A stretch of DNA of 35,415 nt from an uncultured Bacteroidales bacterium. Its GTDB lineage: Bacteria > Bacteroidota > Bacteroidia > Bacteroidales > WCHB1-69. Of this stretch, positions 120-32,306 are shown in pieces. The stretch is taken from positions 1 to 35,415 of the forward strand of contig CAMJPH010000018.1 in assembly GCA_946407715.1 (NCBI GenBank). Direction: 5' to 3'. Below the pieces are notes generated by a model. It saw only the letters and a program-made list of their open reading frames with translations, was not told where the DNA came from and made no database searches. Position numbers and translations under genes: made by a program. The first letter of the stretch is position 1; the number at the start of each line of letters is the position of its first letter.

Positions 120-147
120 GTAGAAACGTTTCATGAAACGTCTCTAT
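120..147. repeat. Degenerate copy of the GTAGAGACG palindromic repeat
   Basis: Arms GTAGAAACG and CGTCTCTAT flank the core TTTCATGAAA. Compared with the other copies in the window each outer arm has one substitution, while the core is a perfect 10-bp palindrome. The copy lies about 17 nt past the stop codon of the WYL regulator gene, between that gene and the promoter reading out of the window. Confidence 0.7.
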
Positions 148-163
148 GGGACGGGAAAAACTA

Positions 164-1177
164 TCACGGATATAGCGCCTCCATCTTCCGCACCATATCA
201 CGCATCGTTTTCACCGCAGTGTCGGGGGCGAGAATCCTGACCCCAGGGCCGAAGGAAAGAATCTGCGCGTAAAATTCCATATTCAACACCACTTTGATTT
301 CGAAAATCACCTTTCCTGTGTCCTCGTCCCGTTCCAAAACCATCTGCGAAGGGTGAAGCGGTTTGGTCTCCGCGTAGGGAGCTTGATCTTTGTCGGCCTC
401 GAACCGAACCGTTGCCAAAGGGGTTTTGCGGGTCTTGGTCACTCCAATCACGTCCTTGAAAAAAGTGCTGCTGTCGAACCCTTTTTTCTCTGTAAACATT
501 TCATTGTCATTCGGTTCAATACCTTTGATTCGGTCTAAAGCCATCGTCAGCAATTTTCCGTCGCGGTGTCGCATTCCAAGCAAAAACCAACGGTTCCGAT
601 ACTCTTTCAGCAAGTAAGGGGAAACCGTCCATGTTTTGGTTTCCAGTGATGTAAAAGACTGATAATGAACATTTATGACTTGTTTTCTGGAAATATAGTT
701 GTACAAAGGGTTGAGGTATTTCAGCCCGATGAGGTTGCTGTTCCGCTCGAAATCCACAATGGGCTTTCGGTTTGACTTGGAAACGGCTAACTGGTCCTGC
801 ATCCGGTTGACCACATCGCTCATCTCCGTGAAGAAGTCAAAATCCTGAAACTGCCGCAACATACCCACGGCCTCCTGCATCATCTCGTAATCCCGTTGCG
901 ACAACGGCAAATTAGTGATGGAGTAGTCAGGGTCGGCATAGCGGTAATACTTCTGGTCATAAACCTCAATCGGAGCGTTGTATCCGTAGCGGTCGCTGCG
1001 CATCATCTGCAAATCCAGCTGCACCGTCCGTTTGGAGATATTTCCGACTCCTTCATAGTCGTACAGCGCTTCGGAGCAGGCATCCACCAACATGTCCAAA
1101 GTCCACCGCTTGCATCGGTTGCGCAAACAGTTGTCTATCGTCTTATATCGGATCAGTGCATTTTTTGTTAAAGGCAT
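164..1177 (-). CDS. WYL-domain transcriptional regulator
   Basis: A 337-aa protein with the layout of Bacteroidota WYL regulators. Residues 1-75 form an N-terminal helix-turn-helix region (start MPLTKNALIRYKTIDNCL). The WYL domain is at about 160-225, with a core reading SPYLLKEYRNRWFLLG, and a WCX-like C-terminal part follows to the end. WYL proteins are usually DNA-binding regulators whose WYL domain senses a ligand, in some cases nucleic acid. The frame stays open upstream to 1456, but that extension runs through a hexamer repeat array (Leu-Arg/Lys repeats) and through the promoters, so I take the ATG at 1175-1177. The gene is divergent from rtcB and shares its spacer, which suggests it regulates rtcB and itself; that role is inferred from position. 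Confidence 0.88.
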   Translation of the reverse strand: MPLTKNALIRYKTIDNCLRNRCKRWTLDMLVDACSEALYDYEGVGNISKRTVQLDLQMMRSDRYGYNAPIEVYDQKYYRYADPDYSITNLPLSQRDYEMMQEAVGMLRQFQDFDFFTEMSDVVNRMQDQLAVSKSNRKPIVDFERNSNLIGLKYLNPLYNYISRKQVINVHYQSFTSLETKTWTVSPYLLKEYRNRWFLLGMRHRDGKLLTMALDRIKGIEPNDNEMFTEKKGFDSSTFFKDVIGVTKTRKTPLATVRFEADKDQAPYAETKPLHPSQMVLERDEDTGKVIFEIKVVLNMEFYAQILSFGPGVRILAPDTAVKTMRDMVRKMEALYP

Positions 1178-1230
1178 ATTGCTAATATTCAGAATGTTAT
1201 AAACTTCGTCAAAGAAAAATTTCACTTTTG

Positions 1231-1238
1231 CAAAAATA
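1231..1238 (-). promoter_or_regulatory. Predicted -7 promoter element of the WYL regulator gene
   Basis: The minus strand reads TATTTTTG here, matching TAnnTTTG. Transcription would begin near 1222-1225 and give a leader of about 45 nt before the ATG at 1177. I see no convincing -33 TTTG at the usual spacing. The element is 8 bp from the perfect inverted repeat at 1246-1270. Confidence 0.6.
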
Positions 1239-1245
1239 ATTTTTT

Positions 1246-1270
1246 TACTACGCAAAAAGATTGCGTAGTA
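1246..1270. promoter_or_regulatory. Perfect 10-bp inverted repeat, candidate operator
   Basis: TACTACGCAA at 1246-1255 is repeated in perfect inverted form at 1261-1270 with a 5-nt spacer (AAAGA). It sits exactly between the minus-strand -7 element at 1231-1238 and the plus-strand -7 element at 1277-1284. A dimeric regulator bound here could block both divergent promoters. The obvious candidate is the adjacent WYL protein; that assignment is an inference. Confidence 0.6.
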
Positions 1271-1276
1271 GGGTTT

Positions 1277-1284
1277 TATTTTTG
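1277..1284 (+). promoter_or_regulatory. Predicted -7 promoter element of rtcB
   Basis: TATTTTTG matches TAnnTTTG. The start site would be near 1290, giving rtcB a leader of about 130 nt that contains the whole TAAGTY hexamer array. Confidence 0.6.
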
Positions 1285-1338
1285 CCGCCGAATTTAAAAG
1301 TGAAACGTTTCCACCTAAATTCAAAAGCAAAAATGAGC

Positions 1339-1404
1339 TAAGTCTAAGTCTAAGTCTAAGTTTAAGTTTAAGTCTAAGTTTAAGTCTAAGTTTAAGTCTA
1401 AGTC
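1339..1404. repeat. Hexamer tandem array TAAGTY, 11 units
   Basis: Eleven uninterrupted 6-bp units are either TAAGTC or TAAGTT. The array ends 17 bp before the rtcB start codon, inside the predicted rtcB leader. It reads through as Leu-Arg/Lys repeats in a spurious upstream extension of the WYL frame. Its repeat number could vary by slippage. Confidence 0.9.
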
Positions 1405-1421
1405 TAAAAATTATCGGAATT

Positions 1422-2594
1422 ATGAAAGAATTTATGATTGAAGACACGCCGGTCAAGATGTGGGCGTCCGTATGTGACGTGAAGGCTTGGAGAGAGATTT
1501 CGAACTTGTGCAGTCTGCCGTTTCTTTTCCATCATCTCGCGCTGATGCCGGATGTACACGGCGGTGTGGGGATGCCCATCGGGGCAGTTTTAGCCACGAA
1601 AGGCGTGGTCATCCCCAATGCAGTCGGGGTTGACATCGGCTGCGGAATGTGCGCGGTGAAGAGTTCGCTCCGTGTGGAGGATCTTCCGCAGGAGACGCTG
1701 CGCAAGGTCATCATGCGCAACATCCGCAAGCGCATCCCAGTGGGTATGGATCACCACAAAAAAGCTCAGGATGAAGCACTTATGCCGCAAGATTTCGACA
1801 TTGAGCAGACAACAGTGGTGAAACGTCAGTATGTGGCCGCCACCAAGCAGATCGGCACGTTGGGAGGCGGCAACCACTTCATCGAATTGCAGCGCGATGA
1901 GGAGGGGTTCGTCTGGATTATGCTGCATTCCGGCTCCCGAAATCTGGGCAAGCAGGTGTGCGACTTCTACGACAAGCTCGCACGCCAGCTGAACGAGCGA
2001 TGGTTTTCCACCGTCAACCCGGAGATGGAGCTTTCGTTCTTGCCGGTGAAGAGCCCCGAGTTCCATCAATATTGGGCGGAAATGCAGTATTGCGTGGCAT
2101 TCGCGTTAGCCAACCGTTCGCTGATGATGCAGCGCATTATGGAAATTTTGCAAGATGCTTATCCGGACATCACGTTCGAGCCGATGATCAACATCGCGCA
2201 CAACTACGCCGCGTGGGAGAACCATTTCGGGGAGAATGTGATTGTGCATCGAAAGGGAGCCACCCGCGCCCGCGTTGGCGAGGTGGGCATCATCCCCGGT
2301 TCGCAGGGGACTTGCTCTTACATCGTGGAAGGCTTGGGTGAGGAAAACAGTTTCCTGAGCTGTTCGCATAGTGTCGGACGACTGATGAGCCGCACAGAAG
2401 CGCAGAACACCATCGACTTGCAGGCGGAAATCGCCTTCCTCGACGCGCAGAACATCGTCCACGGCATCCGTACCCGCAGCGACCTCGACGAGGCACCTTC
2501 CGCCTACAAAAACATCGACGAGGTGCTGGCGCAGGAGTCCGACCTCGTGAAAATCCTGACCAAGCTGCATCCTATTGCTGTCATTAAAGGATAA
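1422..2594 (+). CDS. rtcB: RNA-splicing ligase RtcB
   Basis: A 390-aa RtcB-family ligase. These enzymes join RNA 2',3'-cyclic phosphate or 3'-phosphate ends to 5'-OH ends using GTP and Mn2+, in tRNA splicing or RNA repair. The family signatures occur in order: PDVHGG (43-48), DIGCGM with the metal-ligand Cys74, GTLGGGNHF (145-153), HSGSRN (169-174), the metal-binding His260 in NIAHNY, HRKGATR (276-282), GSQGT (293-297), and SCSHSVGR with His316 at the position of the guanylylated histidine. The last motif is SHSVGR where many homologues have SHGAGR. The length fits the short bacterial form. I chose the ATG at 1422; Met5 is a possible alternative. No archease or RtcA gene is adjacent; the divergent WYL gene is the likely regulator. 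Confidence 0.95.
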   Translation: MKEFMIEDTPVKMWASVCDVKAWREISNLCSLPFLFHHLALMPDVHGGVGMPIGAVLATKGVVIPNAVGVDIGCGMCAVKSSLRVEDLPQETLRKVIMRNIRKRIPVGMDHHKKAQDEALMPQDFDIEQTTVVKRQYVAATKQIGTLGGGNHFIELQRDEEGFVWIMLHSGSRNLGKQVCDFYDKLARQLNERWFSTVNPEMELSFLPVKSPEFHQYWAEMQYCVAFALANRSLMMQRIMEILQDAYPDITFEPMINIAHNYAAWENHFGENVIVHRKGATRARVGEVGIIPGSQGTCSYIVEGLGEENSFLSCSHSVGRLMSRTEAQNTIDLQAEIAFLDAQNIVHGIRTRSDLDEAPSAYKNIDEVLAQESDLVKILTKLHPIAVIKG

Positions 2595-2732
2595 GGCTGT
2601 CCGTCTGGGCTATGGTGGAAGGAGGAAAGACTATAGGTGGGTTTCGGTTTCTCGCCAGTGAAGGCTAACAGCCAAAGTCTTTATCATTAGTCTATGTCTA
2701 AGTCATAGTGGGATTTTGGTTCGGTCGCGCGA

Positions 2733-2770
2733 ACTATTCACTATTCACTGTTCACTGCTCACTGTTCACT
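2733..2770. repeat. Heptamer tandem array ACTRTTC, about 5.4 units
   Basis: Units ACTATTC, ACTATTC, ACTGTTC, ACTGCTC and ACTGTTC are followed by a partial ACT. The array ends 10 bp before the smpB -7 element and so covers the region where a -33 element would lie. In the rest of the rtcB-smpB gap (2595-2804) I see only a short AGTCTATGTCTAAGTCATAG stretch near 2691-2709, which resembles the other arrays. Confidence 0.9.
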
Positions 2771-2779
2771 AAAAAAGCG

Positions 2780-2787
2780 TATCTTTG
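2780..2787 (+). promoter_or_regulatory. Predicted -7 promoter element of smpB
   Basis: TATCTTTG is a perfect TAnnTTTG match. It lies 17 bp from the smpB ATG, so the leader would be only about 10-14 nt. The heptamer array occupies the upstream promoter region. Confidence 0.65.
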
Positions 2788-2804
2788 CCGCCGAATTAGA
2801 AGTC

Positions 2805-3263
2805 ATGGGCAAGAGAAAACAGGACACTCAGATCGCGATCAAGAACAGGAAGGCGGAATTCCTCTACTATCTGCATACTTCCTACACGGCGGGTATTGTG
2901 CTGACAGGCACGGAGATCAAATCCATCCGGGCGGGGCGCGCCAATATCACCGATGCCTATTGTTCGTTCATTAACAACGAGTTATGGGTTCATAACATGC
3001 ATATCAGCGAATATGCGCAGGGCAGCTACAACAACCATCAGCCCAAGCGCGACCGCAAGCTGTTGCTTCAACGCAAGGAGATGCGCAAACTGATGACCAA
3101 GCTCAACGAGCGCGGTTTCACCATCATCCCCACTTTGCTGTGGATCAATGAGAACGGCTATGCCAAATTAGATATCTCTTTAGCCAAAGGTAAGAAAATG
3201 TACGACAAACGCGAAACCATCAAGGAGCGCGACCAACGCCGTCGCGGCTCTGACGAAGAATAA
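2805..3263 (+). CDS. smpB: SsrA (tmRNA)-binding protein SmpB
   Basis: A 152-aa SmpB of normal length. SmpB binds tmRNA and delivers it to stalled ribosomes for trans-translation. The N-terminal oligonucleotide-binding region is recognisable ([18 protein letters not shown], then [20 protein letters not shown]), as is the [19 protein letters not shown] segment. The Lys/Arg-rich tail KERDQRRRG normally becomes helical in the A site and mRNA channel. The ATG follows a short leader after a strong -7 element. The next gene (MerR type) starts 6 nt after the stop codon, so the two are probably co-transcribed. The tmRNA gene itself was not found in the window. Confidence 0.97.
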
Positions 3264-3269
3264 ACGACA

Positions 3270-3635
3270 ATGGAAGAGAATCTGCCCATCACTGACACGT
3301 TGCCCGAGTCCATCGCGGAGCAGGAGAAAATCTGGTACGGTATCGGCGAAACCGCTGAGGCTCTGGGTGTTCCGGCCTCCACCTTGCGTTTTTGGGAGAA
3401 GGAGTTCGATCTGATTAAGCCCCGCAAGAACAAAAAAGGCGACCGTTTCTACTCCAAAAACGACATCGCCATCCTGCGCACCATCCAGTATCTCACCAAG
3501 GTGAAAGGTTTTACGATTCAGGGCGCAAAGACCGCCATCAAAACCAACTTCATGAAGGAGGCCGAAACTGCCGCCATCGTGGACACACTGACACAGATTA
3601 AGGAGAAATTACTGGAAATCAAGAAATTGCTGTAG
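3270..3635 (+). CDS. MerR-family transcriptional regulator
   Basis: A 121-aa protein with a MerR-type winged helix at about residues 22-90: YGIGETAEALGVPASTLRFW is the recognition HTH and the wing follows (RKNKKGDRFYSKNDIAILRTI). A short C-terminal helix (TLTQIKEKLLEIKKLL) is the likely dimerisation coiled coil. No effector domain or Cys ligand set is visible, so the signal is unknown. It lies 6 nt behind smpB. Its stop codon TAG (3633-3635) is part of the palindromic repeat at 3631-3660, so that repeat sets the gene's last codons. Confidence 0.9.
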   Translation: MEENLPITDTLPESIAEQEKIWYGIGETAEALGVPASTLRFWEKEFDLIKPRKNKKGDRFYSKNDIAILRTIQYLTKVKGFTIQGAKTAIKTNFMKEAETAAIVDTLTQIKEKLLEIKKLL

Positions 3636-3660
3636 AGACGTTGCGCGCAACGTCTCTACA
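3631..3660. repeat. Perfect 30-bp palindrome shared by two convergent gene ends
   Basis: Arms TGTAGAGACG and CGTCTCTACA flank the palindromic core TTGCGCGCAA. All 30 bp are self-complementary. The left arm contains the TAG stop of the MerR gene (3633-3635), and the right arm contains, on the minus strand, the TAG stop of the LytTR gene (3656-3658). The same 30 bp recur at 10370-10399. The element may act as a two-way transcription terminator, but there is no T-run on either side. Confidence 0.93.
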
Positions 3661-4750
3661 AACGTACCCGGTACCCGCCAGTCTTCTTGCTGCCGGTGTA
3701 TTCTATGATTCCCTCGTCCTTAAGCTGCTTGAGGATGCGGTTGACGGTGCTGAGCGAAAGGCGGCAGAATTGCACAATATCTGTGCCTTTGCAATCAGGG
3801 TGTCCGTTGATGTAATCGAGAACGAATTGGATGTTATTTCTCTCTTCTGTTTGACAGGTGGATTCCATCTCGTTGGAAATTTGTATTGTCTCCTCTATCC
3901 CTTGTGTTTGTTCAGGATTCGGTAAAAGCTCGTTTACGTGGTGTGGTCGTGGTGTGGTGTTTTTTTTCAGAAGCCTCATCGCATTTTCTTTGTATGCATT
4001 GGATATCAGGAAACCTATAGGTTTTTCTTTATCCATAAATGCAACATATACATTGTTTTCATCAAAGGAATGTACGTGTTTGTAGAACACAATGACACCT
4101 CGGGATATGCGTACCACAAGTTGGTTGCCAAGCTCTTTTGCAAAACTCGACAATGAACAGTTCCGGTTATATTTGTTGCCATCTGTTGTGAAAATATAGG
4201 TATAGTTTTCCTCTTGTTGGCAATAGACAATATCGTTTATGGGTATTGTAATCATCTTACTTTTATTTTCACCATTTTCGCATTTTGCAATGATAAGTTT
4301 GTTGATTTTTTTCATGGAGTCGTTGATTTCCTTATTTTCCCGAATGGAGTCCTCCAACAGGCTGACTAAAAAAAACAGACCAATAAAACAGAGATTTCTG
4401 ATTAGCAGTGTGACGGTGAGAAATATAGTGTATTCATGCAAAGTCAAGTCGCCTATTTGACTGATTATTTCGCTGACCTGCGGATAAACAAGCACTTCCT
4501 CTGCGATTGCGGCTATCAAAACACTGAAAAAAGTGGAAACAGCATATAAGAGGAACTTCCTTTTCTTGTACAGAATCGGAAAAAGTACAAAGTAATTTAG
4601 AAAACAAATCGAAACTACAAATATTGCCGTAATAGATTCTTTATACAAGGCTCCGTATGCGGCAGGCCTTAATAAGGAGTAATAATTGAATGCACACAAC
4701 ACAAGCACAGCAAAAAGCGTAAACAAAACGGCTTTGATTTTCTTATTCAT
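3656..4750 (-). CDS. Membrane-anchored LytTR regulator with C-terminal winged helix
   Basis: A 364-aa predicted membrane-bound transcription factor. Four hydrophobic segments (about 7-25, 40-62, 66-88 and 107-131) are followed by a short helical linker, a LytTR DNA-binding domain at about 153-262 (core NDIVYCQQEENYTYIFTTDG, later RISRGVIVFYKHVHSF), and a winged-helix region at about 303-364 (FVLDYINGHPDCKGTDIVQF through the end). LytTR domains contact direct repeats on one DNA face. There is no receiver domain or histidine kinase, so signal and output seem to be in one protein. It is divergent from the lipoprotein-subtilase operon, and the spacer carries repeats at 22-bp spacing, so it probably controls that operon. 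The gene is AT-richer than smpB or pyrB. Its stop codon lies in the 3631-3660 palindrome. Confidence 0.85.
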   Translation of the reverse strand: MNKKIKAVLFTLFAVLVLCAFNYYSLLRPAAYGALYKESITAIFVVSICFLNYFVLFPILYKKRKFLLYAVSTFFSVLIAAIAEEVLVYPQVSEIISQIGDLTLHEYTIFLTVTLLIRNLCFIGLFFLVSLLEDSIRENKEINDSMKKINKLIIAKCENGENKSKMITIPINDIVYCQQEENYTYIFTTDGNKYNRNCSLSSFAKELGNQLVVRISRGVIVFYKHVHSFDENNVYVAFMDKEKPIGFLISNAYKENAMRLLKKNTTPRPHHVNELLPNPEQTQGIEETIQISNEMESTCQTEERNNIQFVLDYINGHPDCKGTDIVQFCRLSLSTVNRILKQLKDEGIIEYTGSKKTGGYRVRL

Positions 4751-4821
4751 TTGTTTTTCTTTTATTTACAATATCTGTTTGTTAACTAATCAAATGATGG
4801 AAAAACCTAAATTTGTATTTG

Positions 4822-4829
4822 CAAAGATA
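4822..4829 (-). promoter_or_regulatory. Predicted -7 promoter element of the LytTR gene
   Basis: The minus strand reads TATCTTTG, a full TAnnTTTG match. The leader to the ATG at 4750 would be about 65 nt. Confidence 0.65.
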
Positions 4830-4876
4830 CAATAAATTTCGCAAATACGAGGGTAATTCACCGCAAACATAGACTT

Positions 4877-4953
4877 TTTATTGTGTCATTTCAACCCGTT
4901 TATTGTGCCATTATTCGATTTTGTCAAATTTTCGTCACAAACTCGTCAAATTA
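4877..4953. promoter_or_regulatory. Helically phased direct repeats, candidate LytTR operator
   Basis: TTTATTGTGTCATT at 4877-4890 recurs as TTTATTGTGCCATT at 4899-4912, exactly 22 bp later. From 4921 three 11-bp units follow (TTGTCAAATTT, TCGTCACAAAC, TCGTCAAATTA), and the outer two of these are again 22 bp apart. All four blocks (4877, 4899, 4921, 4943) are therefore in one 22-bp register, two helical turns. LytTR regulators are known to bind direct repeats spaced about two turns apart. The sites lie between the divergent promoters, upstream of both. Confidence 0.55.
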
Positions 4954-4987
4954 TTTAAATGATATAACAAATCGTTGGTTGAAGTTG

Positions 4988-4995
4988 TATTTTTG
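4988..4995 (+). promoter_or_regulatory. Predicted -7 promoter element of the lipoprotein-subtilase operon
   Basis: TATTTTTG matches TAnnTTTG and lies 27 bp from the lipoprotein ATG at 5023. No standard -33 element is seen at the expected spacing, which is consistent with an activator-dependent promoter. Confidence 0.6.
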
Positions 4996-5022
4996 CAAGA
5001 CTAACACTAAAATAAAAATCGT

Positions 5023-5520
5023 ATGAAAAAAAAATTATTGTATTTATGTTGCGGAGTGATTGCGTTTTCAATGCTTCTTACGGTTCATTCTTGTCGAAAG
5101 GAAAATCGCGCTGTTTTGTCTGAAAACAGGATGGTTCCGTTAAAAGAGGAAGCAAAGACCGGCAACCAATATTGGATGATTTGCGCCATAGGGCATGATG
5201 GTTCAAAATGTCCTGGATGTGTAACAATAAACGGAAAAAGAGTGCATATTGACTGCCAAGGAGAAGGTCATGAGTGTCAAAAAGCAACCAGAATAATGTT
5301 ACAGTGGAGTGTGGACAGTGTGTTAAGTGCTACGACATTGGACACGCTCGACCTGACAAATCTGGATATTTTCAACATGCCGGCCAGGTCATTGTCTTTA
5401 GAAATAGATGAAGGGGTTTATTCCTATTTAAACATCCCTTCGCAGCTGGTCTATCGTGACACCACCACCCTGCAGTTCACGTTCACGGGGCTGTCTTTTA
5501 CAAGTAAGCCGTTATATTAA
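5023..5520 (+). CDS. Small Cys-rich lipoprotein of unknown function
   Basis: A 165-aa protein with an N-terminal hydrophobic signal (residues 5-20) and a plausible lipobox VHSC, with Cys24 as the lipidated residue. The mature part has a compact Cys/His segment at 54-85: Cys54, His58, Cys63-Pro-Gly-Cys66, His75, Cys78, His83 and Cys85. This could hold disulfides or a metal. The rest (about 90-165) looks beta-rich and matches no family I recognise. It is the first gene of an operon with the secreted protein at 5555 and the subtilase at 6522, and it is divergent from the membrane LytTR regulator. It may be a surface accessory or target of that system, but its function is unknown. Confidence 0.75.
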   Translation: MKKKLLYLCCGVIAFSMLLTVHSCRKENRAVLSENRMVPLKEEAKTGNQYWMICAIGHDGSKCPGCVTINGKRVHIDCQGEGHECQKATRIMLQWSVDSVLSATTLDTLDLTNLDIFNMPARSLSLEIDEGVYSYLNIPSQLVYRDTTTLQFTFTGLSFTSKPLY

Positions 5521-5554
5521 TAATATTTCAAACATTAATTAAAAACAAAACAGT

Positions 5555-6505
5555 ATGAGAAAGATTTTTCGTTTATCATTATTAGTAGTATTCATTATAA
5601 TATTATTGATGGATAATGTTTCAGCGAATATTCGTATTGGGAATATTTTTGTGGATTGTTCAAAAGACACTATCATAGTAGGTGATAACATAACTGGATT
5701 CATACGCTATGAGGCCGATAACCATACTATTGTCTTACAAGATGCCATCATAATCATGCCCGACACGATGTCCGTAATCAGCGGGGGAATTTTGATTTAT
5801 GATGAAGATACAGTCAACATTAAGTTAATTGGAGATAACACGATAACAGGTATTGTTCCCATAGAAATTTCACACTCTGTGTGTTGTATTTCAGGATCGG
5901 GGCGACTCGTGCTAAATGCACCTTATGATGATGCCTGGGGTGGAATATTCTTTTGGGCATTATATCCTTCGTATGAAAACAGAAATGGCTTGATTATCTC
6001 TGATGGATGTCGAGTGGAGATACACGCCCCTTATTCTACAGGTATCTATACCAGAAGAAATCCCAACAATCCCGAAGAGACAAGAGACAGATGCCATGTA
6101 AAAGTAATAGGTAGCACACTCGTTGTGGATGCGGAAAATGTATTCTGGCATGTTGCGGATTTGATAATGGAAAATAGCCACATAGTAAATCCGATAAATG
6201 GATACTTCAGTGCAGACAGTGGTATTATAGTGGACAATATGCAACAAAATTGCACTTATTTGGAAATCTGTCCGGGAACATCGAATATCCCAATGTATGA
6301 CACAAGTCATTATAAAGTATTTGGATCAAGGAATGGAATTTGCTTGCAGGATATTTCCGAAAATGCCAATGTACGCATCTTCAGTATATCTGGTCAATTA
6401 ATACAATCCATGAAAATCACTCAAAACAACACGTTCATTCCTGTCAGAAGTGGGGTTTACATTGTCTGCATAGGAAATGTCAAAAGAAAAGTAATTGTCA
6501 TATAA
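5555..6505 (+). CDS. Secreted protein with T9SS-type C-terminal domain
   Basis: A 316-aa protein with a signal peptide (hydrophobic core 7-19, likely cleavage after VSA near residue 24). The body is rich in short beta strands with repeated I/V-x-I/V patterns and turns, resembling a right-handed beta-helix fragment (for example TVNIKLIGDNTITGI and CCISGSGRLVLNAP). The last 50 residues look like a T9SS type A sorting domain: NVRIFSISGQLIQS, then SGVYIVCIGNVKRKVIVI. T9SS cargo is exported across the outer membrane and attached to the surface or released. There are 34 nt to the lipoprotein gene upstream and 16 nt to the subtilase gene downstream. It is AT-rich like its neighbours. The specific role is unknown. 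Confidence 0.78.
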   Translation: MRKIFRLSLLVVFIIILLMDNVSANIRIGNIFVDCSKDTIIVGDNITGFIRYEADNHTIVLQDAIIIMPDTMSVISGGILIYDEDTVNIKLIGDNTITGIVPIEISHSVCCISGSGRLVLNAPYDDAWGGIFFWALYPSYENRNGLIISDGCRVEIHAPYSTGIYTRRNPNNPEETRDRCHVKVIGSTLVVDAENVFWHVADLIMENSHIVNPINGYFSADSGIIVDNMQQNCTYLEICPGTSNIPMYDTSHYKVFGSRNGICLQDISENANVRIFSISGQLIQSMKITQNNTFIPVRSGVYIVCIGNVKRKVIVI

Positions 6506-6521
6506 CATAAAAAGTAATAGT

Positions 6522-9500
6522 ATGAAAAAATTCTTATTTATAATATTGAGTGTGGGATTTTTGCCATTGTTCTGTCACATATATGCTCAGAAACCACACT
6601 ATTACTATTTCGACAAAGAAATAGAATTAACAGAAAATCCTATGATCCGATATATTGATTTGGTTGATGACGTGTCAAACGAGCTGGAGGTCGCTTTACG
6701 AGGAAAGTTACGCGAATATGCCACGGAAGCCCAATATGGGACTAACAAATATATATATACTATTACAAATCCTATGTTGACGGATTCTGTGTTGAAGATT
6801 ACAGAAGAGTATCAAAACATCATATCGTTAAATTCTGTACAATATAAGCTGGACTCGCAGACAATCCTGGTGCCCCAACGGATGGTTTTTGTGAAGTTGA
6901 AAAGCGAAAATTTGTCTCTGGAAGAGATACTGAAGACACGAAATATCTCGTATTCAGGCATTGAAAAAGATGAGTATTCAACCAATTGTTACACTGTCTT
7001 GCTTAATTATGATGGTGCTTTAAGCGTATCAGCTCTTTTGTATAATACAGGATTGTTCGAATATGCAGAACCTGATTTTTATAGTTCTATGCAACTGCTA
7101 GGATATGAAGATAATCCACTATACAGTCAACAATGGAGTGTTCATAATGACAGTATGAATATTGGATTACTGTCAGCCTGGAGCAAAACGACAGGTCATG
7201 AGAGTATCAAAATTGCTCTTTTGGATGTTGGTGTAGAATACTATCATTCTGATTTGGCTCCTAATATGCTGCCTGGGTATTCAGCCACTATGGATTGTTA
7301 TGGATATGATTGTAGCGGATACGACAATTTTATGGAGAGTCATGGAACTTTATGTGCAGGGATAATGATAGCAGCCAACAATAATGAAGGAATAGTGGGC
7401 GTATCATATTCGTCCAAGCTTATGTCTGTCAAATGTTCGGAAATACGTCCTACAGGTACGAAAGATCATTATCCAACCGGATGTGACCACATTTACGCAC
7501 ATCATTTGATGAAAGCATTAAATGCAGCTTGTTATACGCTCAAAGCAGATATCATCAACATTGCTTTAACAGACCGCCATCCATCAAGTGCAATTACAGA
7601 TAAGATAACTGAGGTGTGTCAAAATGGACGTGACGGGAAGGGATTGGTTTTTGTTGCGAGTTCTGGAAACAATGAATACTACATGTCTTCGGATACGTCA
7701 ATGTCTTGTTTCGCCATTCACCCTGACGTGATATCCGTTGGCTCAATCGCACCAACAGGATTACGTTCCGATAATGCGACAAACACTGGATGGTTTAGTT
7801 TCTCAAGCTGTTATGGGGAAGATTTGGATCTGGTTGCACCTGGAGAATTGATACCAACTACCGATATTTGTTCTGCCTATTCAACATTTGCCGGAACTTC
7901 TGCTGCATCATCACATGTGGCCGGAGTGGCCGCTCTGATATTGTCTGTTAACCCTTGTTTGACGGGAGAAGAAGTAAAACACATTATAGAATCAACATGC
8001 ACAAAAATTCGTCAGGATGTTTATACATACGACAACAACCCCAATCATCCGAATGGAACGTGGAACATTGAGGTTGGTCATGGACTGTTGAACGCTGGAG
8101 CTGCGGTAGCTATGGCACAGCAGACGCATGAATACACTGTAATAAACGATTCTTTAATATCTTCAAACAATATTTGGACTGGCAACAAACAAATAATCAG
8201 CGATTTAATAATTGACTCATTGGCAACGCTTACCATCACAGATACCCTCTTTGTGGCAAATTCAGCCCGTATCGTTGTCCGTCCCGGGGGCAAGCTCGTG
8301 GTCGATGGCGGCACGCTGACCAGTGCCTGTGGCGATGTGATGTGGCAGGGCATTGAGGTGGTGGGCGACCGCACCAAACGTCAGATTCCGCAGTGGCAGG
8401 GAACAGTGGAGCTGAAGAACGGCGCGGTCATCGAGAATGCGCGCTGCGGCATACGCACGGGGCTTGGGGAAGACAATTGGCACACCACCGGAGGCATCAT
8501 CAAGGCCGACAGCTCCTTCTTCATCAACAATCGTCGAGCCGTGGCTTTCCTCTCCTATACCAACCATTCTCCGGCAGGCACCATAACGGACAACCAAAGC
8601 AGCTTCAGCAGGTGTGTGTTCACCGTGGACAACAACAATTTGTTCTCCCAAAACAACGCCAGCTTCATCGACCATGTCACGATGTGGGAAGTGCGAGGGG
8701 TGAAGTTCCTGGGCTGCACATTCTCCAACCAAACGAGCGAACGCCACCAGCGTCGCCATGCCATCTATGCCGATGATGCAGGGTTCAAGATAGACACTTA
8801 CTGCAAGAGTCCCACGAACATTTTTCCCGATTGCGAATGCCCGGAGGCTCTTTCGACATACAACACCTTCTCGGGGTTCAGCACGGCGGTGGAGGTACTC
8901 ACCACGGGTGTGCAGCATGCCGTCCAAATCAACCACGCCCTTTTCAGCAACAACCATACAGGTGTGAAAATAGCTGGCAACCATTTTACTTCTGTGACGC
9001 GATGCGAGTTTGATCTTGATCAGGTGCCAATCCAGTCGCTAAGTAACAGAGGATTGGATTTGAGAACCAGCACAGGATATCTGGTGGAGGGCAACACCTT
9101 CAGCCGGAGCACTTACTCCGACCCGAGGGTGTTCTCCTCAACAGGCATCTATGTGGACAGTTCAGGCGTTGGCAACAACTCTCTGCACCTGAACACATTC
9201 GAGAATCTGGCCTACGGTATTTATGTGACAAGGAACAACGGGAATGATCAGTCAGGTCTGCAGGCCACCTGCAACGATTTCGACCACAACAAGTACGACA
9301 TATACATGACTGGCGGATCCTCTATGCGGAGTATGCAGGGATGGAGCAACAGTGGTGCAGATAATAGTTTCGTCAATACGCAGACGAACAGTTTCTACAA
9401 TCCAGGGCCGCAGTATATTTCGTATTTCTACAGCAGCGGAGGCAACCACGCTCCATACAACGTAACCCCGTCATACGTCGCATTGAACAGTTCCGCCACA

Positions 9501-10355
9501 GCCAACTCCTGTGCCTCCACGTTGTGTGATGGAGGATGGGTTCAGCCGAGATTGGCCGAGTTCCAATCTGACATGGATGCCTGCACGGGTTCAACCCAAC
9601 CGTTGTCCGACATCTATTACACCGCCGTGCGCACTCTTATGACCGATACCATCCTGGATCTTAACGAATTGGAGCAGTGGCACGCTGCCGCGCAGCCCAT
9701 CGGCGATCCGTATTCGCTGGCGGAGACGCGGTTCATGGAGGGTTATGTGGAAACGTTCACGGCAGACGTGGACGATGCGGAAATGGCCAACTATGCGGAA
9801 TTCCATGCGCTGAAATTGGCGTTGCGGGGAGACAATAACGACAACGCGAACAACCAGGACAACAATAATTCGCAAAATTCGTTTAATTCGCCGTTTATCA
9901 ATTGGTACGCATTGACCCCCGCGCAGATCGCGCAGTTGCAGACCATTGCAGAACGCAACACCGGCCGCGCCTCGGTGATGGCGAAAGGGGTGCTGTGTTT
10001 CTTCCATGGGATTTGTTACGAGGACGATTTGTTGGGGGACGACAACATGGACAACCAGAACAACAATATGGAGACCCGCAGTGCCAAGGTGCCGCAACAG
10101 GAAGGGGAAACGAATCTTACCGTCTATCCCAACCCCACCGACGACGTTCTGTTCATCGAATTGCGCGGCGGCGCGGGCATCGCGAACGTGGCGTTGTACG
10201 ATTTGCAGGGACGGGCGGTAGAGACGCACCATGGCACGTCTCTACAGGGCGGAACGGCCACCATTAACGTGCGGAACGTGCCTGCGGGTGTCTATGTTTT
10301 GCGCGTGACGGACACGGACGGGAACGAATATCGTCGGAAAATTGTCAGGAAATAA
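6522..10355 (+). CDS. T9SS-exported subtilisin-like (S8) serine protease
   Basis: A 1277-aa protein with a signal peptide (about 1-22, ending IYA|QKP). An N-terminal propeptide-like region runs to about 205. The S8 domain spans about 225-535, with the triad Asp235 (ALLDVGVEYYHSDL), His274 (SHGTLCAGI) and Ser460 (GTSAASSHVAG), and oxyanion Asn383 in SSGNN. A beta-helix-like region covers about 570-1010. A helical segment and two Asn/Asp-rich linkers follow, then a T9SS type A domain from about 1205 (VYPNPTDDVLFIEL to YRRKIVRK). I start at the ATG at 6522 because it opens the signal peptide; a TTG at 6495 is in frame but overlaps the previous gene. GC content jumps near codon 580, and a palindromic repeat is translated inside the sorting domain. 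It probably acts on the cell surface or outside the cell. Confidence 0.92.
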   Translation: MKKFLFIILSVGFLPLFCHIYAQKPHYYYFDKEIELTENPMIRYIDLVDDVSNELEVALRGKLREYATEAQYGTNKYIYTITNPMLTDSVLKITEEYQNIISLNSVQYKLDSQTILVPQRMVFVKLKSENLSLEEILKTRNISYSGIEKDEYSTNCYTVLLNYDGALSVSALLYNTGLFEYAEPDFYSSMQLLGYEDNPLYSQQWSVHNDSMNIGLLSAWSKTTGHESIKIALLDVGVEYYHSDLAPNMLPGYSATMDCYGYDCSGYDNFMESHGTLCAGIMIAANNNEGIVGVSYSSKLMSVKCSEIRPTGTKDHYPTGCDHIYAHHLMKALNAACYTLKADIINIALTDRHPSSAITDKITEVCQNGRDGKGLVFVASSGNNEYYMSSDTSMSCFAIHPDVISVGSIAPTGLRSDNATNTGWFSFSSCYGEDLDLVAPGELIPTTDICSAYSTFAGTSAASSHVAGVAALILSVNPCLTGEEVKHIIESTCTKIRQDVYTYDNNPNHPNGTWNIEVGHGLLNAGAAVAMAQQTHEYTVINDSLISSNNIWTGNKQIISDLIIDSLATLTITDTLFVANSARIVVRPGGKLVVDGGTLTSACGDVMWQGIEVVGDRTKRQIPQWQGTVELKNGAVIENARCGIRTGLGEDNWHTTGGIIKADSSFFINNRRAVAFLSYTNHSPAGTITDNQSSFSRCVFTVDNNNLFSQNNASFIDHVTMWEVRGVKFLGCTFSNQTSERHQRRHAIYADDAGFKIDTYCKSPTNIFPDCECPEALSTYNTFSGFSTAVEVLTTGVQHAVQINHALFSNNHTGVKIAGNHFTSVTRCEFDLDQVPIQSLSNRGLDLRTSTGYLVEGNTFSRSTYSDPRVFSSTGIYVDSSGVGNNSLHLNTFENLAYGIYVTRNNGNDQSGLQATCNDFDHNKYDIYMTGGSSMRSMQGWSNSGADNSFVNTQTNSFYNPGPQYISYFYSSGGNHAPYNVTPSYVALNSSATANSCASTLCDGGWVQPRLAEFQSDMDACTGSTQPLSDIYYTAVRTLMTDTILDLNELEQWHAAAQPIGDPYSLAETRFMEGYVETFTADVDDAEMANYAEFHALKLALRGDNNDNANNQDNNNSQNSFNSPFINWYALTPAQIAQLQTIAERNTGRASVMAKGVLCFFHGICYEDDLLGDDNMDNQNNNMETRSAKVPQQEGETNLTVYPNPTDDVLFIELRGGAGIANVALYDLQGRAVETHHGTSLQGGTATINVRNVPAGVYVLRVTDTDGNEYRRKIVRK
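10218..10245. repeat. Palindromic repeat copy translated inside the T9SS sorting domain
   Basis: Arms GTAGAGACG (10218-10226) and CGTCTCTAC (10237-10245) match the intergenic copies exactly. The core CACCATGGCA is palindromic except for two mismatched pairs. The repeat is in frame with the subtilase and encodes VETHHGTSLQ (residues 1233-1242), a loop between two strands of the C-terminal sorting domain. Confidence 0.88.
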
Positions 10356-10359
10356 CGGA

Positions 10360-10409
10360 TTGCGGGCGTTGTAGAGACGTTGCGCGCAACGTCTCTACAA
10401 CGTCCGCAA
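10360..10409. repeat. 50-bp near-perfect palindrome after the subtilase gene
   Basis: The central 30 bp (10370-10399) are identical to the palindrome at 3631-3660. Here the symmetry continues 10 bp outward on each side (TTGCGGGCGT and ACGTCCGCAA) with one G.T mismatch. It starts 5 nt after the subtilase stop codon and could serve as that operon's terminator, although no T-run follows. Confidence 0.88.
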
Positions 10410-10525
10410 ATTCATTTCAACGGTGTTGTTTTTACCGAAAAACAGTCTCGCATAGCAACAATATAATTAAAAATCCACTGTTTATAAGTAATTTTTACCA
10501 CAATAATTTGCAACTTTGAAAGTTG

Positions 10526-13500: not shown

Positions 13501-13592
13501 CTTACCAGAGCATCGTGGACAACTATAACGGCGAGGATTTGGTGAAAGTGGCGCGGGAGAAGATCGCGGAAGTGGACGCGCTGGACAATTAG
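10569..13592 (+). CDS. Large secreted/periplasmic TPR-repeat protein
   Basis: A 1007-aa protein with a signal peptide (MKYIKTSLLFIMTGLFGILPAFA|Q) followed almost entirely by tetratricopeptide repeats. The TPR patterns are clear, for example AVDLFNKEKYGSAQQYFKYV, PEAHYYLGRFYFARKNYKKT and AEFDLAVTYHTQNDFSSAIS, each about 34 residues. TPR solenoids bind partner proteins. The frame also opens with a GTG at 10560, but the ATG at 10569 begins a proper signal peptide. The stop codon TAG is the first three bases of a TAGCAGT heptamer array. The following beta-barrel gene begins 58 nt later, so this protein may support assembly or function of that outer membrane protein. I do not recognise a named homologue. 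Confidence 0.87.
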   Translation: MKYIKTSLLFIMTGLFGILPAFAQRTENFKSPQYEYQTAVDLFNKEKYGSAQQYFKYVYESTDDKQHDLKTNSLFYQGVCAAKLDNQDAGYLLQSFIDRYPVHTSVPEAHYYLGRFYFARKNYKKTIEQFDEIYESEIQPENVQEYHFKKGYSYFMTEDYDNAKMMFRKAREEEGPYKDRSVYYLAFMAYQAGQYDAALEDFLILKDNSDLRSEVPYFLTQIYFKEEQYEKVLQVAPETEIVKDKNLAQVARCVALSNYKLNQYEEAAESFDKIKDNSLITFDRNDWFAKGFTDYRVQKYSDAITAFSRAANDKNPDAMTQQCYFLIADCYMKNAQRTLAAQSFKEASKYNFDPTIKEEALFNYAKLQCETSTSPFNNGIEALQDYLNQYPHSQHSEEASDYLSRIYLSTKNYQAAINSIEKMKSKNPSILKAYQRCTFNRALEQINNQNYKEAIALLNKTLSSPSDKQIHQDALYWKAEAQYRNEQYKDAYYSFQTYQNSDRASTNDYYVNSYYSLGYAALKLKRYRDAGNHFKTYLNKTTKSEDIDIQADASARLADCYFMQLDLPNAIKYYDQCERLGQSNADYAVYQLAKCYGYQKNNNKKIQTLERLLNSYSPSSYKDDAEFDLAVTYHTQNDFSSAISAYKSFIKNHPKSQYIRQAHTRLAQAYLNSDNQQMAISTYKYVVETYPGSQEAKDALANLETIYTENGNTSEFFDYVRSKNMNISADRQDSIAFKAAETKYNRGDCEASIAACQDYIRQFPNGSFVAKAHFYKGECEYGMRRYDDALADYEVIIKKYKTEYNVTALHKAASILYNDKQYAKALTYFNKLMENTTAEEEVVYANNGAMRCAYFLKDYRSALTSAENIIRSNQPDQDLLSEALLIAGNSALELKETETAKNYYGRLVPKGSNDLCAEAAYHLAEIALNFDKNLEECETRIKAILGSDYSSEYWYAKTFILYGDLYKAKGNYFQARHTYQSIVDNYNGEDLVKVAREKIAEVDALDN

Positions 13593-13631
13593 CAGTTAGC
13601 AGTTAATAGTTAGCAGTTAGCAGTTAGTAAT
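13590..13631. repeat. Heptamer tandem array TAGCAGT, six units
   Basis: Six 7-bp units: TAGCAGT, TAGCAGT, TAATAGT, TAGCAGT, TAGCAGT and TAGTAAT. The first TAG is the stop codon of the TPR gene (13590-13592). The array fills most of the gap to the beta-barrel gene at 13651. Confidence 0.9.
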
Positions 13632-13650
13632 TGAAAATAGATACAGAAAG

Positions 13651-27004: not shown

Positions 27005-27038
27005 AAGGTGGCATAATAACGATGCCACCTTTTTTTTC
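27005..27038 (+). terminator. Rho-independent terminator after the HIT gene
   Basis: The stem AAGGTGGCAT / ATGCCACCTT (10 bp) with loop AATAACG is followed by a run of nine T at 27030-27038. The T-run ends only 9 nt before the ATG of the next gene (27048), leaving no room for a promoter between them. Confidence 0.88.
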
Positions 27039-27047
27039 TCTTGTATT

Positions 27048-27614: not shown

Positions 27615-27710
27615 AACAGGCGGCCGGATTTTTGTGAGTAATTGCCAATTTTTAAGGTGGGACTAAAATGATAATGTATTTTATAGGTGGGACTTACCGG
27701 TCGCCTGTTT
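27614..27710. other. Noncoding element bounded by 14-bp inverted repeats
   Basis: AAACAGGCGGCCGG (27614-27627) pairs with CCGGTCGCCTGTTT (27697-27710), with a single G.T wobble when read as plus-strand RNA. Between the arms AGGTGGGACT occurs twice in direct orientation (27655-27664 and 27685-27694, 30 bp apart). A segment from GTAATTGCC (about 27638) to GGGACTTAC (27698) has imperfect inverted ends. It could be a terminator whose loop received a small mobile-element remnant, or a structured RNA. I cannot match it to a known RNA family. Confidence 0.5.
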
Positions 27711-27729
27711 GTTATCATTTTTCAGCGAG

Positions 27730-27737
27730 CAAAGATA
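27730..27737 (-). promoter_or_regulatory. Predicted minus-strand -7 element facing the noncoding element
   Basis: The minus strand reads TATCTTTG, a full TAnnTTTG match, although no minus-strand gene follows. A transcript starting near 27723 would run leftward through the element at 27614-27710 and antisense to the kinase gene. I see no matching plus-strand -7 element for the helicase gene in this gap. Confidence 0.45.
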
Positions 27738-27759
27738 TAAAAAATTTCTTTCAAAATTT

Positions 27760-27786
27760 AATTTATAAAAATATTTTTTATAAATT
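27760..27786. other. A/T-only 12-bp inverted repeat upstream of the helicase gene
   Basis: AATTTATAAAAA (27760-27771) is repeated in perfect inverted form at 27775-27786 with a 3-nt loop. It lies 53-79 bp before the helicase ATG in a region of almost pure A/T. The stem would be weak in RNA; as DNA it may be flexible or easily melted. Confidence 0.5.
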
Positions 27787-27838
27787 TTTATTTACAATTA
27801 ATAGCTAAAATAAAACACATTAACCTAATTGAAAAACC

Positions 27839-30211: not shown

Positions 30212-30217
30212 GAAAGT

Positions 30218-31078
30218 ATGCAATTCAGAACCATCATACCAGCCCCGCAATATCCTTTTGAAATCACACCGAACGACACGGTGATGCTTGTGGGTTCCTG
30301 TTTCTCCGACAATATGGGGCACTACTTTGATGTGCATCGTTTTGATGTTTGCTCCAATCCGTTCGGGGTGCTTTTCAATCCGATTTCCATAGACAGGGCA
30401 TTGCGTTTTATGCTTCAGCCCGACCTTTTTGACAAGAACCGCTATTTTTACAAGTATCGTGATTTATGGGTGAGCTTTGCCCATCATGGTCGTTTTTCAA
30501 AGGAGAATTACGAGGATTTTGAGGCTGAAATTGACCGTAGTTTGCAGGAATGTTCCGATTTTCTGCATAAAACCCGCTATTTGTTTGTCACTTTCGGAAC
30601 GGCGTTTTGTTATAAGTTTATTCCCCGGGATTTGATTGTCTCCAATTGCCATAAGATTCCGAACCATCAGTTTGAGCGGATTCGTTTGGATCAGAAAAAG
30701 ATTGTGTCTCAATGGAATAGCACGCTTAAGTTGCTTAAAGATGCGGTTCCGGATTTGAAGGTGATTTTCACGGTGAGTCCGGTTCGTCATCTTGGCGACG
30801 GGGCGCACGAAAACGCTTTGAGCAAGTCCGAGCTTCTTTTGTCGGTAGATAAGTTGGTGGACAATGAAACCACATTTTATTTCCCCGCTTACGAGTATTT
30901 GATGGACGATTTGCGGGACTATCGTTTTTACGCAAAGGATCTGTGCCATCCTAACGATATGGCGGTCAGTTACTTGGAGGAGAAATTGGCGGAGGCCTTT
31001 TTCTCTCAGGAAACGCGGGAGCAAATGGTGGAAATTGAAAAGGAGAACCGTTTCCTAAATCACCGCCGGTTCAGGTAG
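30218..31078 (+). CDS. GSCFA-domain protein
   Basis: A 286-aa protein with the GSCFA signature LVGSCFSDNMG (about 24-34), followed by NPFGVLFNPISI, VTFGTAFCYKF, VSPVRHLGDG (His in the RH pair) and CHPNDMAVSYL near the C-terminus. The GSC (Ser), Asn and DxxH-like positions suggest an SGNH-hydrolase-like fold, so a cytosolic esterase or acetylhydrolase activity is possible. The substrate is unknown. It is co-transcribed with the helicase gene (6 nt gap) and converges on purN with only 6 nt between stop codons; no terminator fits in that gap. Confidence 0.88.
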   Translation: MQFRTIIPAPQYPFEITPNDTVMLVGSCFSDNMGHYFDVHRFDVCSNPFGVLFNPISIDRALRFMLQPDLFDKNRYFYKYRDLWVSFAHHGRFSKENYEDFEAEIDRSLQECSDFLHKTRYLFVTFGTAFCYKFIPRDLIVSNCHKIPNHQFERIRLDQKKIVSQWNSTLKLLKDAVPDLKVIFTVSPVRHLGDGAHENALSKSELLLSVDKLVDNETTFYFPAYEYLMDDLRDYRFYAKDLCHPNDMAVSYLEEKLAEAFFSQETREQMVEIEKENRFLNHRRFR

Positions 31079-31084
31079 AAGAAA

Positions 31085-31651
31085 CTACCGGTTGATTACT
31101 TCATTGATTGTCAGTGGGAAATATTGATGTTCTAGCTGGTGGATTTTGGTTTCGATGGTTTCTAACGTGTCGTCATCCTCCGCATGGAAGGCGAACTGGT
31201 TGATGATTTTGCCAGTATCCACGCCTTCATCGACAAAATGGATGGTGATGCCGAACACTTTCACGCCGTAGTTGTAGGCGTCGGCGATGCCGTGTGCGCC
31301 CGGGAACGAGGGCAGCAGGGCAGGGTGCAGGTTAATGATGCGCATTGGGAAAGCTTCCAACAGCGTGGGTCCGATGATGCGCATATAGCCGGCCAGCACG
31401 ATGTATTCGACTTGTCGTTTTTGAAGTTCGGTTAGAACGGCCTGTTCGTAGGCGGCCTTTCCGGCGTAGTCCTTTGCACAAAAAGTGAACGCGTCAATGC
31501 CGGCGGCATTGGCGCGTTCCACTGCTTTGCTTGAAGGATTGTCGGATACCAATAATGCGATGTCGGCGTTGAGCGTTTGCTGTTTCACGGCTTCGATAAT
31601 GGCCTGGAAATTGGAGCCGAAACCGCTGGCGAATACGGCAATCTTCTTCAT
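31085..31651 (-). CDS. purN: Phosphoribosylglycinamide formyltransferase PurN
   Basis: A 188-aa GAR transformylase, which transfers a formyl group from 10-formyl-THF to GAR in purine synthesis. The phosphate-binding loop is FASGFGSNF (7-15). The catalytic residues are Asn107 and His109 in NLHPALLPSFPGAH and Asp145 in VDEGVDTG, each one position from the E. coli numbering. The length is slightly shorter than E. coli PurN. The gene is 6 nt downstream of the Cys-rich lipoprotein gene and probably shares its promoter at 32219-32226, an unexpected partner for a purine enzyme. Confidence 0.95.
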   Translation of the reverse strand: MKKIAVFASGFGSNFQAIIEAVKQQTLNADIALLVSDNPSSKAVERANAAGIDAFTFCAKDYAGKAAYEQAVLTELQKRQVEYIVLAGYMRIIGPTLLEAFPMRIINLHPALLPSFPGAHGIADAYNYGVKVFGITIHFVDEGVDTGKIINQFAFHAEDDDTLETIETKIHQLEHQYFPLTINEVINR

Positions 31652-31657
31652 AGCGAA

Positions 31658-32173
31658 TTAGTTACCTTTCGGACATTTGCCGCCTTCCTTGGGGCAGCCT
31701 TTGCCTTCACCTTTGCAACCATGGCCTTCGCCTTTACATCCGGGTTTGTCACCGCCCTTGCAGCAAGCTTTGCCTTCACCCTTGCAACCGCCGCAGCAGC
31801 TCATTTCGTCGAAAGCGGCTTTTCTGTCATCGAGGGAGAGTTTGTCCCAGTTGAGCATGGCAGCCTCGAATTTGGCTTTCTTCTCTTCCTGGGCTTTCTT
31901 CATAGCTTGCATCTCATCGTATTTGGCCTTGCGCATGTCAAGCAGTTCCGCTTTGCGCTCATCGGTGAGATTTTCCCAGTTCTGCCAATCCTCGGCAGCC
32001 TTCTTGCAGGCTTCCATTTCGGCTTTCTGTTCTTCGGTCATCTCCTTGCAGCAAGGTTGATCTTCGGCTTGCACTTCGGTGCATTCAGCTTTCTGCTCAG
32101 CAGGTTTGTTGTTGGTGCAGGCGGTGAAAGTCAGACAGCATGCAGCTGCCATCAAGATAAAAAGTTTCTTCAT
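31658..32173 (-). CDS. Cys/Gly-rich lipoprotein, possible metal binder
   Basis: A 171-aa protein with a lipobox-type signal (LTFTAC, lipidated Cys19). The middle (about 43-125) is a charged helical region with repeats such as MTEEQKAEMEA and LTDERKAELLDM, reminiscent of Spy/CnrX-type periplasmic metal-sensing helices. The tail (126-171) carries nine cysteines in CCGGC, CC and KGEGKGC-like units separated by Gly/Lys, similar in style to metallothioneins. Fourteen cysteines, including Cys19, remain in the mature form. Copper, zinc or cadmium binding is likely but untested. It is the promoter-proximal gene ahead of purN (6 nt). No metal transporter is adjacent. Confidence 0.8.
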   Translation of the reverse strand: MKKLFILMAAACCLTFTACTNNKPAEQKAECTEVQAEDQPCCKEMTEEQKAEMEACKKAAEDWQNWENLTDERKAELLDMRKAKYDEMQAMKKAQEEKKAKFEAAMLNWDKLSLDDRKAAFDEMSCCGGCKGEGKACCKGGDKPGCKGEGHGCKGEGKGCPKEGGKCPKGN

Positions 32174-32218
32174 TTTTTTGCTTTTTAATTTGTTTCTAAC
32201 TTTAATGAATTACAGGCG

Positions 32219-32226
32219 CAAAAATA
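32219..32226 (-). promoter_or_regulatory. Predicted -7 promoter element of the Cys-rich lipoprotein-purN operon
   Basis: The minus strand reads TATTTTTG, matching TAnnTTTG. The leader to the ATG at 32173 would be about 40 nt. Confidence 0.62.
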
Positions 32227-32278
32227 GTCTTTTTTCAATCCCCGAACTGTTTAAAATTCTTAAATTTGCATGGAACGA

Positions 32279-32306
32279 ATAGAGACGCAAAATTTTGCGT
32301 CTCCAC
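32279..32306. repeat. Palindromic repeat copy with CAAAATTTTG core
   Basis: The core 22 bp (32282-32303) are a perfect palindrome: GAGACG, then CAAAATTTTG, then CGTCTC. The outermost bases differ slightly from the other copies (ATAGAGACG and CGTCTCCAC). The copy lies 25 bp past the pyrI stop codon, and a further partial arm ACGTCTC occurs at about 32312-32318. It may terminate pyrBI transcription. Confidence 0.85.

Follow-up and report, generated by a model that had tools for sequence, protein, structure and literature searches.

Five palindromes in a Bacteroidales contig are probably double-foot repetitive elements spread by a group of tyrosine transposases

A 35,415-nucleotide stretch of DNA from an uncultured Bacteroidales bacterium (contig CAMJPH010000018.1 of assembly GCA_946407715.1; hereafter the window, meaning the whole stretch analysed) holds five copies of a short palindrome in which the outer arms recur and the cores differ. 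What is this element, and what keeps its variable cores symmetrical? We conclude, with a probability of roughly 0.83, that each of the five palindromes is a copy of a 28-bp double-foot repetitive extragenic palindrome (REP) spread by a group of REP-associated tyrosine transposases (RAYTs; TnpA_REP, of the HUH/Y1 type), a mobilization that we infer from genomic sequence.

Results

A 28-bp unit with constant arms and variable cores

Searching the window for GTAGAGACG-N10-CGTCTCTAC with up to 3 mismatches returned five matches, compared with none in 100 dinucleotide shuffles, establishing the five-copy family that an earlier reading of this sequence (the original prediction) had proposed. The repeat unit is 28 bp, a 10-bp core between two 9-bp arms; it starts with GTAG, ends with CTAC and is self-complementary throughout. 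Copies 2 (3632..3659) and 4 (10371..10398) share the core TTGCGCGCAA and copy 3 (10218..10245) has the core CACCATGGCA, close to the class CGCCATGGCA; all three have perfect arms. Copies 1 (120..147; core TTTCATGAAA) and 5 (32279..32306; core CAAAATTTTG) each differ at 2 arm positions; the arms are thus common to all five copies, as predicted, but identical in only three. None of the copies was assigned a strand. All five predicted sites were confirmed, although two had been drawn too long (3631-3660 and 10360-10409) for a 28-bp unit; at the second, however, the palindrome does extend into the flanks, over 10357-10412.

In window order, the cores pair at 5, 5, 3, 5 and 5 of 5 positions, the odds of 5/5 for a random core being 0.001. 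Four of the five are thus perfectly self-complementary, but 'nearly so' was a generous description of CACCATGGCA, which pairs at only 3/5. A sister family, GTAGGGGCG-N10-CGCCCCTAC, shares the 28-bp plan but differs in its arms at two positions; scanning the window for its members and for decayed copies revealed no further convincing copy. The window copies represent four core classes (TTTCATGAAA, TTGCGCGCAA, CGCCATGGCA-like and CAAAATTTTG), each of which was met elsewhere, within or next to the RAYT genes of other genomes. The window itself showed no RAYT, and its copies therefore look like dispersed progeny.

The arm pattern with its 10-nucleotide spacer, which the original prediction proposed to seek elsewhere, was abundant in relatives. 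We sampled 60 genomes, 36 of the nearest genus and 24 others of the order; exact-arm copies occurred in 42/60 (34/36 in the genus, with 0 to 237 copies each, and 8/24 of the others), and a reversed control pattern gave 0 in all 60. The 36 genus genomes together held 1,769 exact-arm copies in 91.5 Mb; two had no exact copy, and the nearest genome (G001) had 95. Within 0.4 Mb of genome G014, 28/39 facing arm pairs (within 80 bp) lay exactly 10 apart. A scan of named genomes yielded at least 118 stretches with the element, and the taxa among the matches listed include Bacteroidota, Cyanobacteria, Anaerolineae, Spirochaetales, Planctomycetaceae, Acidobacteria and Desulfuromonas. Viral contigs contributed 109 stretches with GTAGAGACG palindromes and 96 with GTAGGGGCG palindromes (L337-L540); a motif scan of these viral stretches revealed no convincing case of a RAYT that contains the element.

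One RAYT group carries the palindrome in its own gene

The search for a REP-associated transposase, also suggested at the outset, led to a single RAYT group that bears the palindrome inside and beside its gene. Among intragenic copies in a set drawn from genome contigs (genome_contigs), 10/40 lay in open reading frames (ORFs) with the motif MP(N/D)HxH, and with one such protein as query, related proteins turned up in 54/100 genomes. All eight RAYTs tested matched NCBIfam NF047646 (REP-associated tyrosine transposase) at 8.7e-18 to 5.9e-10, the profile found PDB 4er8 (TnpArep) at 3.9e-9, and both HUH and a C-terminal Tyr were invariant in 16 aligned rows. Seventy RAYT loci were fetched, of which 57 gave an ORF by motif and the other 13 were left out. 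HUH was present in 57/57 ORFs, preceded by N in 42 and by D in 15, with I, V, L or F as the middle residue; the HUH–Tyr distance, taken in 55 ORFs, had a median of 100 (range 69-182), and the Tyr motif was often YIxNNV. The motif [WF]Q....[DE][HRNY]..R occurred in 52/57, 49 with W, at the spacing of the GTAG-contact region described in passages of PMC6006769.

The palindrome stood inside 31 of these 57 ORFs (17 with exact arms) and only nearby in 6; the chance of finding a copy in a 700-bp stretch is 4.3% at the density of the richest genome. A database search extended the association, with 7,245 of 7,996 scored candidates passing 1e-5 and 72 of the best 120 encoding the element in frame. In-frame copies mostly follow HUH, and some precede it. 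One RAYT DNA locus came from a cyanobacterium, Planktothrix rubescens. Other arms were also present at RAYT loci (GTAGAGACA, GTAGAGCCG, GTAGAGGCA and GTAGGGGCG), indicating that arms too vary beyond this family; one GTAGGGGCG sister palindrome lies inside a same-group RAYT in G037 (L621), and palindromes of this sister family occupy equivalent places in relatives.

IS200-like Y1 genes were considered as the partner and rejected. Among 60 loci matching Pfam Y1_Tnp (58 from the genus and one each from G045 and G055), an element with up to 3 arm mismatches lay inside the matched stretch in 0/60, and 8/60 had one or two elements anywhere in the 2-3.6 kb fetched. At L115, one element stands on either side of the Y1 gene, yet that gene is flanked by repeats of its own. 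Arrays of other palindromes border two Y1 genes, at L115 (~2409-2936) and L132 (~1550-2011), and are of the GGTGCGTAGCACC and ACCCC..GGGGT types. Separately, RAYTs of another group (L541-L549) have their own short repeats at the ends of their reading frames, encoding peptides such as DASSV, HLRDAD and GGAAFLPQ.

Core class follows RAYT lineage

At RAYT loci with at least two palindromes, all cores agreed within 2 bases in 22/26, compared with 1/9 at other genus loci with neighbouring copies (p = 1.6e-4), a control that leaves out L044 (a RAYT locus with 10 pairs) and in which 1/11 remaining pairs was concordant. A tree of 58 RAYTs, with 51 labelled rows, required 26 core changes, whereas 300 shuffles averaged 37.1 and never fell below 33; for this tree the loop was cut out, element peptides were masked, rows more than 85% identical were thinned, the class CGCCATGGCA was pooled with CGCCATGGTA and CGCCGTGGCA, and CACGGCCGTG with CACGCCCGTG, and the cores of database proteins, read back from peptides, are partly ambiguous. 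Copy number showed the same tendency for CAAAATTTTG: the five genus genomes in which its RAYT class was seen had 58, 47, 24, 12 and 9 copies, whereas the median of the other 35 was 1 (p = 3.8e-4). That core class follows RAYT lineage bears out the proposal of a nonautonomous, REP-like element with core-specific classes.

Cores change in complementary pairs

Core statistics were drawn from 391 distinct exact-arm copies, each counted once per flank pair. These had 120 different cores, of which 45 are perfect palindromes; pairing was perfect in 237 copies and reached at least 4 of 5 pairs in 364. Measured from the 17 core classes with at least 4 copies, 52 copies departed by one base, 41 by two complementary bases and 9 by two other bases. 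The covariation test that had been proposed was therefore positive, with 41/50 two-base departures complementary, compared with 3.7% by chance.

Bacteria are known to perfect quasi-palindromes by template switching. If imperfect palindromes were perfected in this way at replication forks, the core symmetry could arise without any role for a transposase, and the complementarity of most two-base changes fits such a process. Imperfect cores nevertheless recur as classes (CGCCATGGCA, 31 distinct copies; CAAAATCTTG, 17; CAAAATATTG, 12; and others), although perfection should remove them, and core class follows RAYT lineage, so we regard template switching as a very unlikely sole source of the symmetry; it could work beside a RAYT-driven process. 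It is more likely that copies of one class descend from a RAYT-borne master and that classes differ by paired changes. The persistence of imperfect classes in many copies also refines the original idea that the cores are maintained as palindromes: symmetry is favoured, but it is not enforced at each copying. In the asymmetric class CGCCATGGCA/TGCCATGGCG, the TGCCATGGCG strand folds better (−10.7 versus −8.4 kcal/mol).

The unit boundary falls at GTAG/CTAC, with a weak base preference just outside. No target duplication was detected for the arm family of the window, direct-repeat counts being close to those in shuffles; GTAGGGGCG copies in viral contigs showed an excess of 2-bp direct repeats (16/98 versus 5.5 expected). 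Insertion into older palindromes as a rule was rejected, because a 9-bp palindromic extension occurred in only 3/95, 3/143 and 0/103 copies.

Copies cluster at gene 3′ ends and enter reading frames

REPs are 20-40 bp palindromes of high copy number and mainly intergenic position, and the present 28-bp element conforms, with 32/40 copies intergenic in a set from the genus and 88/146 in genome_contigs, the remainder of the latter comprising 40 intragenic copies and 18 at contig edges that were left undecided. Distances to gene 3′ ends were short (median 15 bp in the genus set and 60 bp in genome_contigs), and gaps between divergent genes were depleted (4/32 and 4/88 intergenic copies; p = 0.042 and 5.6e-6, respectively). 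In the window, the GTAG of copy 2 provides the TAG stop of a merR-type ORF (3270-3635), and copy 4 is the tip of a longer, unstranded hairpin (10357..10412; 23-bp stem, −27.3 kcal/mol) directly 3′ of the stop of ORF 6495-10355.

This placement could also be expected of RNA hairpins selected by the host as terminators or stabilizers of mRNA 3′ ends and spread by ordinary duplication and recombination only, an explanation that would account for the proximity to 3′ ends, the scarcity between divergent genes and the hairpin after the stop codon at copy 4. We consider it unlikely, since intragenic copies are frequent (8/40 in the genus set and 40/146 in genome_contigs) and some are in frame in known domains, since a terminator needs no fixed arm sequence whereas here an exact 28-bp unit keeps constant arms across phyla, and since copies are strongly enriched within RAYT genes. 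The scarcity between divergent genes, where regulators act, weighs further against binding sites for a symmetrical DNA-binding protein, whether regulator or chromosome organizer, with core classes serving different proteins. Perfect dyad symmetry, the spacing fixed at 10 and the existence of core classes are what such sites would show, but the classes number in the dozens, copies lie within coding frames and RAYT genes, and the two genus genomes without an exact copy are hard to accommodate; this is the explanation to which we give the least credence.

The in-frame copies of this RAYT-associated element in sorting domains of secreted proteins are of further interest. Copy 3 lies in frame, with the translation VETHHGTSLQ, in the type IX secretion system (T9SS) sorting domain of a subtilase ORF on the forward strand (6495..10355), and paralogues of this host gene in G001 have a REP copy at the equivalent position. 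The T9SS domain also suits a Bacteroidota source for the window. A Pfam scan of seven intragenic copies, picked by eye out of 48, placed the element within a Por_Secre_tail match in 7/7. In-frame copies in T9SS sorting domains, affecting two regions of the domain, were seen at window 10218-10245 and at L213, L252, L263, L278, L318, L319.

Neighbourhoods of the window copies

Copy 1 is also present in G007, and copy 5 is common to G007 and, with its ends shortened, to G022; copy 5 was not present at the equivalent place in G015 or G011. A 6.7-kb segment of the window (3660-10370) is flanked by the two identical TTGCGCGCAA copies. In contig C176 of G001, sequence matching window 10461 onward comes within ~50 bp after the merR end (up to window 3614), and pieces resembling the segment were found elsewhere in G001 and in G022. 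The segment may have arrived through recombination between REPs, as merR in G013 and G014 likewise ends in CTGTAGAGACG. Further dispersed repeats that are matched many times in relatives occupy window 1339-1407, 2733-2793, 5431-5494, 13587-13633, 32804-32850 (a direct repeat of the GACTTGGGACTTGA type) and ~33970-34050.

Discussion

Several observations weigh against spread by this RAYT group. All eight NF047646 matches fall under the curated cut-off, and Pfam Y1_Tnp matches only 1/8 of the RAYTs, under its own cut-off. No palindrome lies inside or near 20/57 RAYT ORFs, and element peptides in the RAYT query and alignment may have favoured element-bearing matches. The concordance and count tests take no account of kinship among genomes. 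Because an element within a RAYT gene is linked to that gene, agreement with the tree may reflect plain co-inheritance. Pairs of filled and empty sites were sought; a blast search with flanks stripped of the element gave 20 matches, none clean, and alignments of five sites revealed rearranged or partly deleted neighbourhoods with no clean empty site. Given this lack of a clean pair, movement is something that we infer.

Core abundance and cognate RAYT also seem uncoupled in some genomes, in comparisons that rest on draft assemblies and on the part of the RAYT matches that was fetched. G014 has 52 CAAAATTTTG copies with no cognate RAYT seen, its RAYT going with GTAGAGCCG-CGCTGCAGCA, while G075, G084 and G098 have CAAAATTTTG at a RAYT locus and exact copies numbering only 2, 1 and 1. 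Similarly, no RAYT match came from G004, which has 68 CGATTAATCG copies, and G003, with a RAYT of the CGATTAATCG class, has only 9 CGATTAATCG copies, four of them at the RAYT locus. Neither G001 nor G015, with 95 copies each, has a RAYT match, and CGCCATGGCA occurs in 30/100 genomes with no visible tie to its RAYT class. Orphan REPs in Pseudomonas and Stenotrophomonas are ascribed, in passages of PMC3686654, to RAYT loss or to a switch of REP at the RAYT.

In related systems, according to parts of PMC8266576, the enzyme binds a single-stranded hairpin and GTAG helps to direct cleavage to CT or CA. By analogy, the present element would fold as a single-stranded hairpin that the RAYT would recognize, cut and join with GTAG as guide, distributing copies across the genome. 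Each core class would then be the progeny of a RAYT-borne master, its core marking the lineage, and the choice of strand may be relaxed, because both strands start with GTAG. Tentatively, the element may comprise two modules, with arms recognized by the whole RAYT group for guidance and cutting and a core at the hairpin tip that acts as a lineage-specific password for its own RAYT; a palindrome in frame within the transposase gene could keep enzyme and substrate in physical linkage, so that new enzyme–core pairs might arise and spread as a unit. The family, in which one fixed frame hosts many cores and the transposase genes bring along their own substrate, offers a compact natural experiment on the joint change of a single-strand DNA transposase and the substrate it would act on.

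Comparison with known systems

The GTAG REPs associated with RAYTs, as described in sections of Di Nocera et al. 2013 (PMC3733652) and Nunvar et al. 2013 (PMC3686654), are 20-40 bp palindromes with a GTAG terminus that lie near gene 3′ ends, can supply a TAG stop through GTAG and include in-frame copies; the same sections describe RAYT-specific REP classes, class switches and orphan REPs after RAYT loss. The present family shares the GTAG terminus, the size range, the RAYT association, the positions near gene 3′ ends, the supply of TAG stops and the in-frame copies. However, GTAG REPs have an unpaired GTAG at one end, whereas the present unit is symmetrical: its GTAG is matched by CTAC in each of the three window copies with perfect arms and, as the search pattern dictates, in the exact-arm sets. 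Bacteroidetes are not among the phyla named in the portions of the 2013 survey of GTAG families consulted (PMC3733652). Rickettsia palindromic elements resemble the family in being palindromic insertions in frame in protein genes but, in the passages of PMC3733652 that treat them, are longer or CGTC-tagged, with no transposase partner reported for CGTC repeats.

The closest counterpart is TnpA_REP subclass 2.4, which, in the parts of Quentin et al. 2018 (PMC6006769) that concern it, goes with double-foot REPs that have 5′ GT[AG]G and 3′ C[TC]AC feet. Its transposase, common in Cyanobacteria and Bacteroidetes and found sporadically in other phyla, is described there as having NH[IFV]H, WQ and YIxNNP motifs, a long and variable HUH–Tyr distance (median 88) and REPs in frame in its gene, generally between HUH and Tyr. 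The feet are exact in 3/5 window copies, copies 1 and 5 having one or two changed foot bases, and relatives of the window likewise have in-frame REPs within RAYT genes. The RAYTs of these relatives largely carry the subclass 2.4 motifs, a putative placement made by motifs; they differ in often having YIxNNV, in an HUH that may be PDHxH or NHLH, and in some in-frame copies that precede HUH. The passages of PMC6006769 consulted contain no element sequence, no split into constant arms and variable core and no test of core by lineage, and we did not meet a description of constant arms with lineage-specific cores in the parts of the main texts of the REP/RAYT literature covered, supplementary files aside. 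Double-foot REPs as a kind are thus already published, and the family fits them, so that much of the present result is a well-supported identification; what is added here is the anatomy of constant arms and class-specific cores, their paired evolution and the in-frame copies in T9SS sorting domains.

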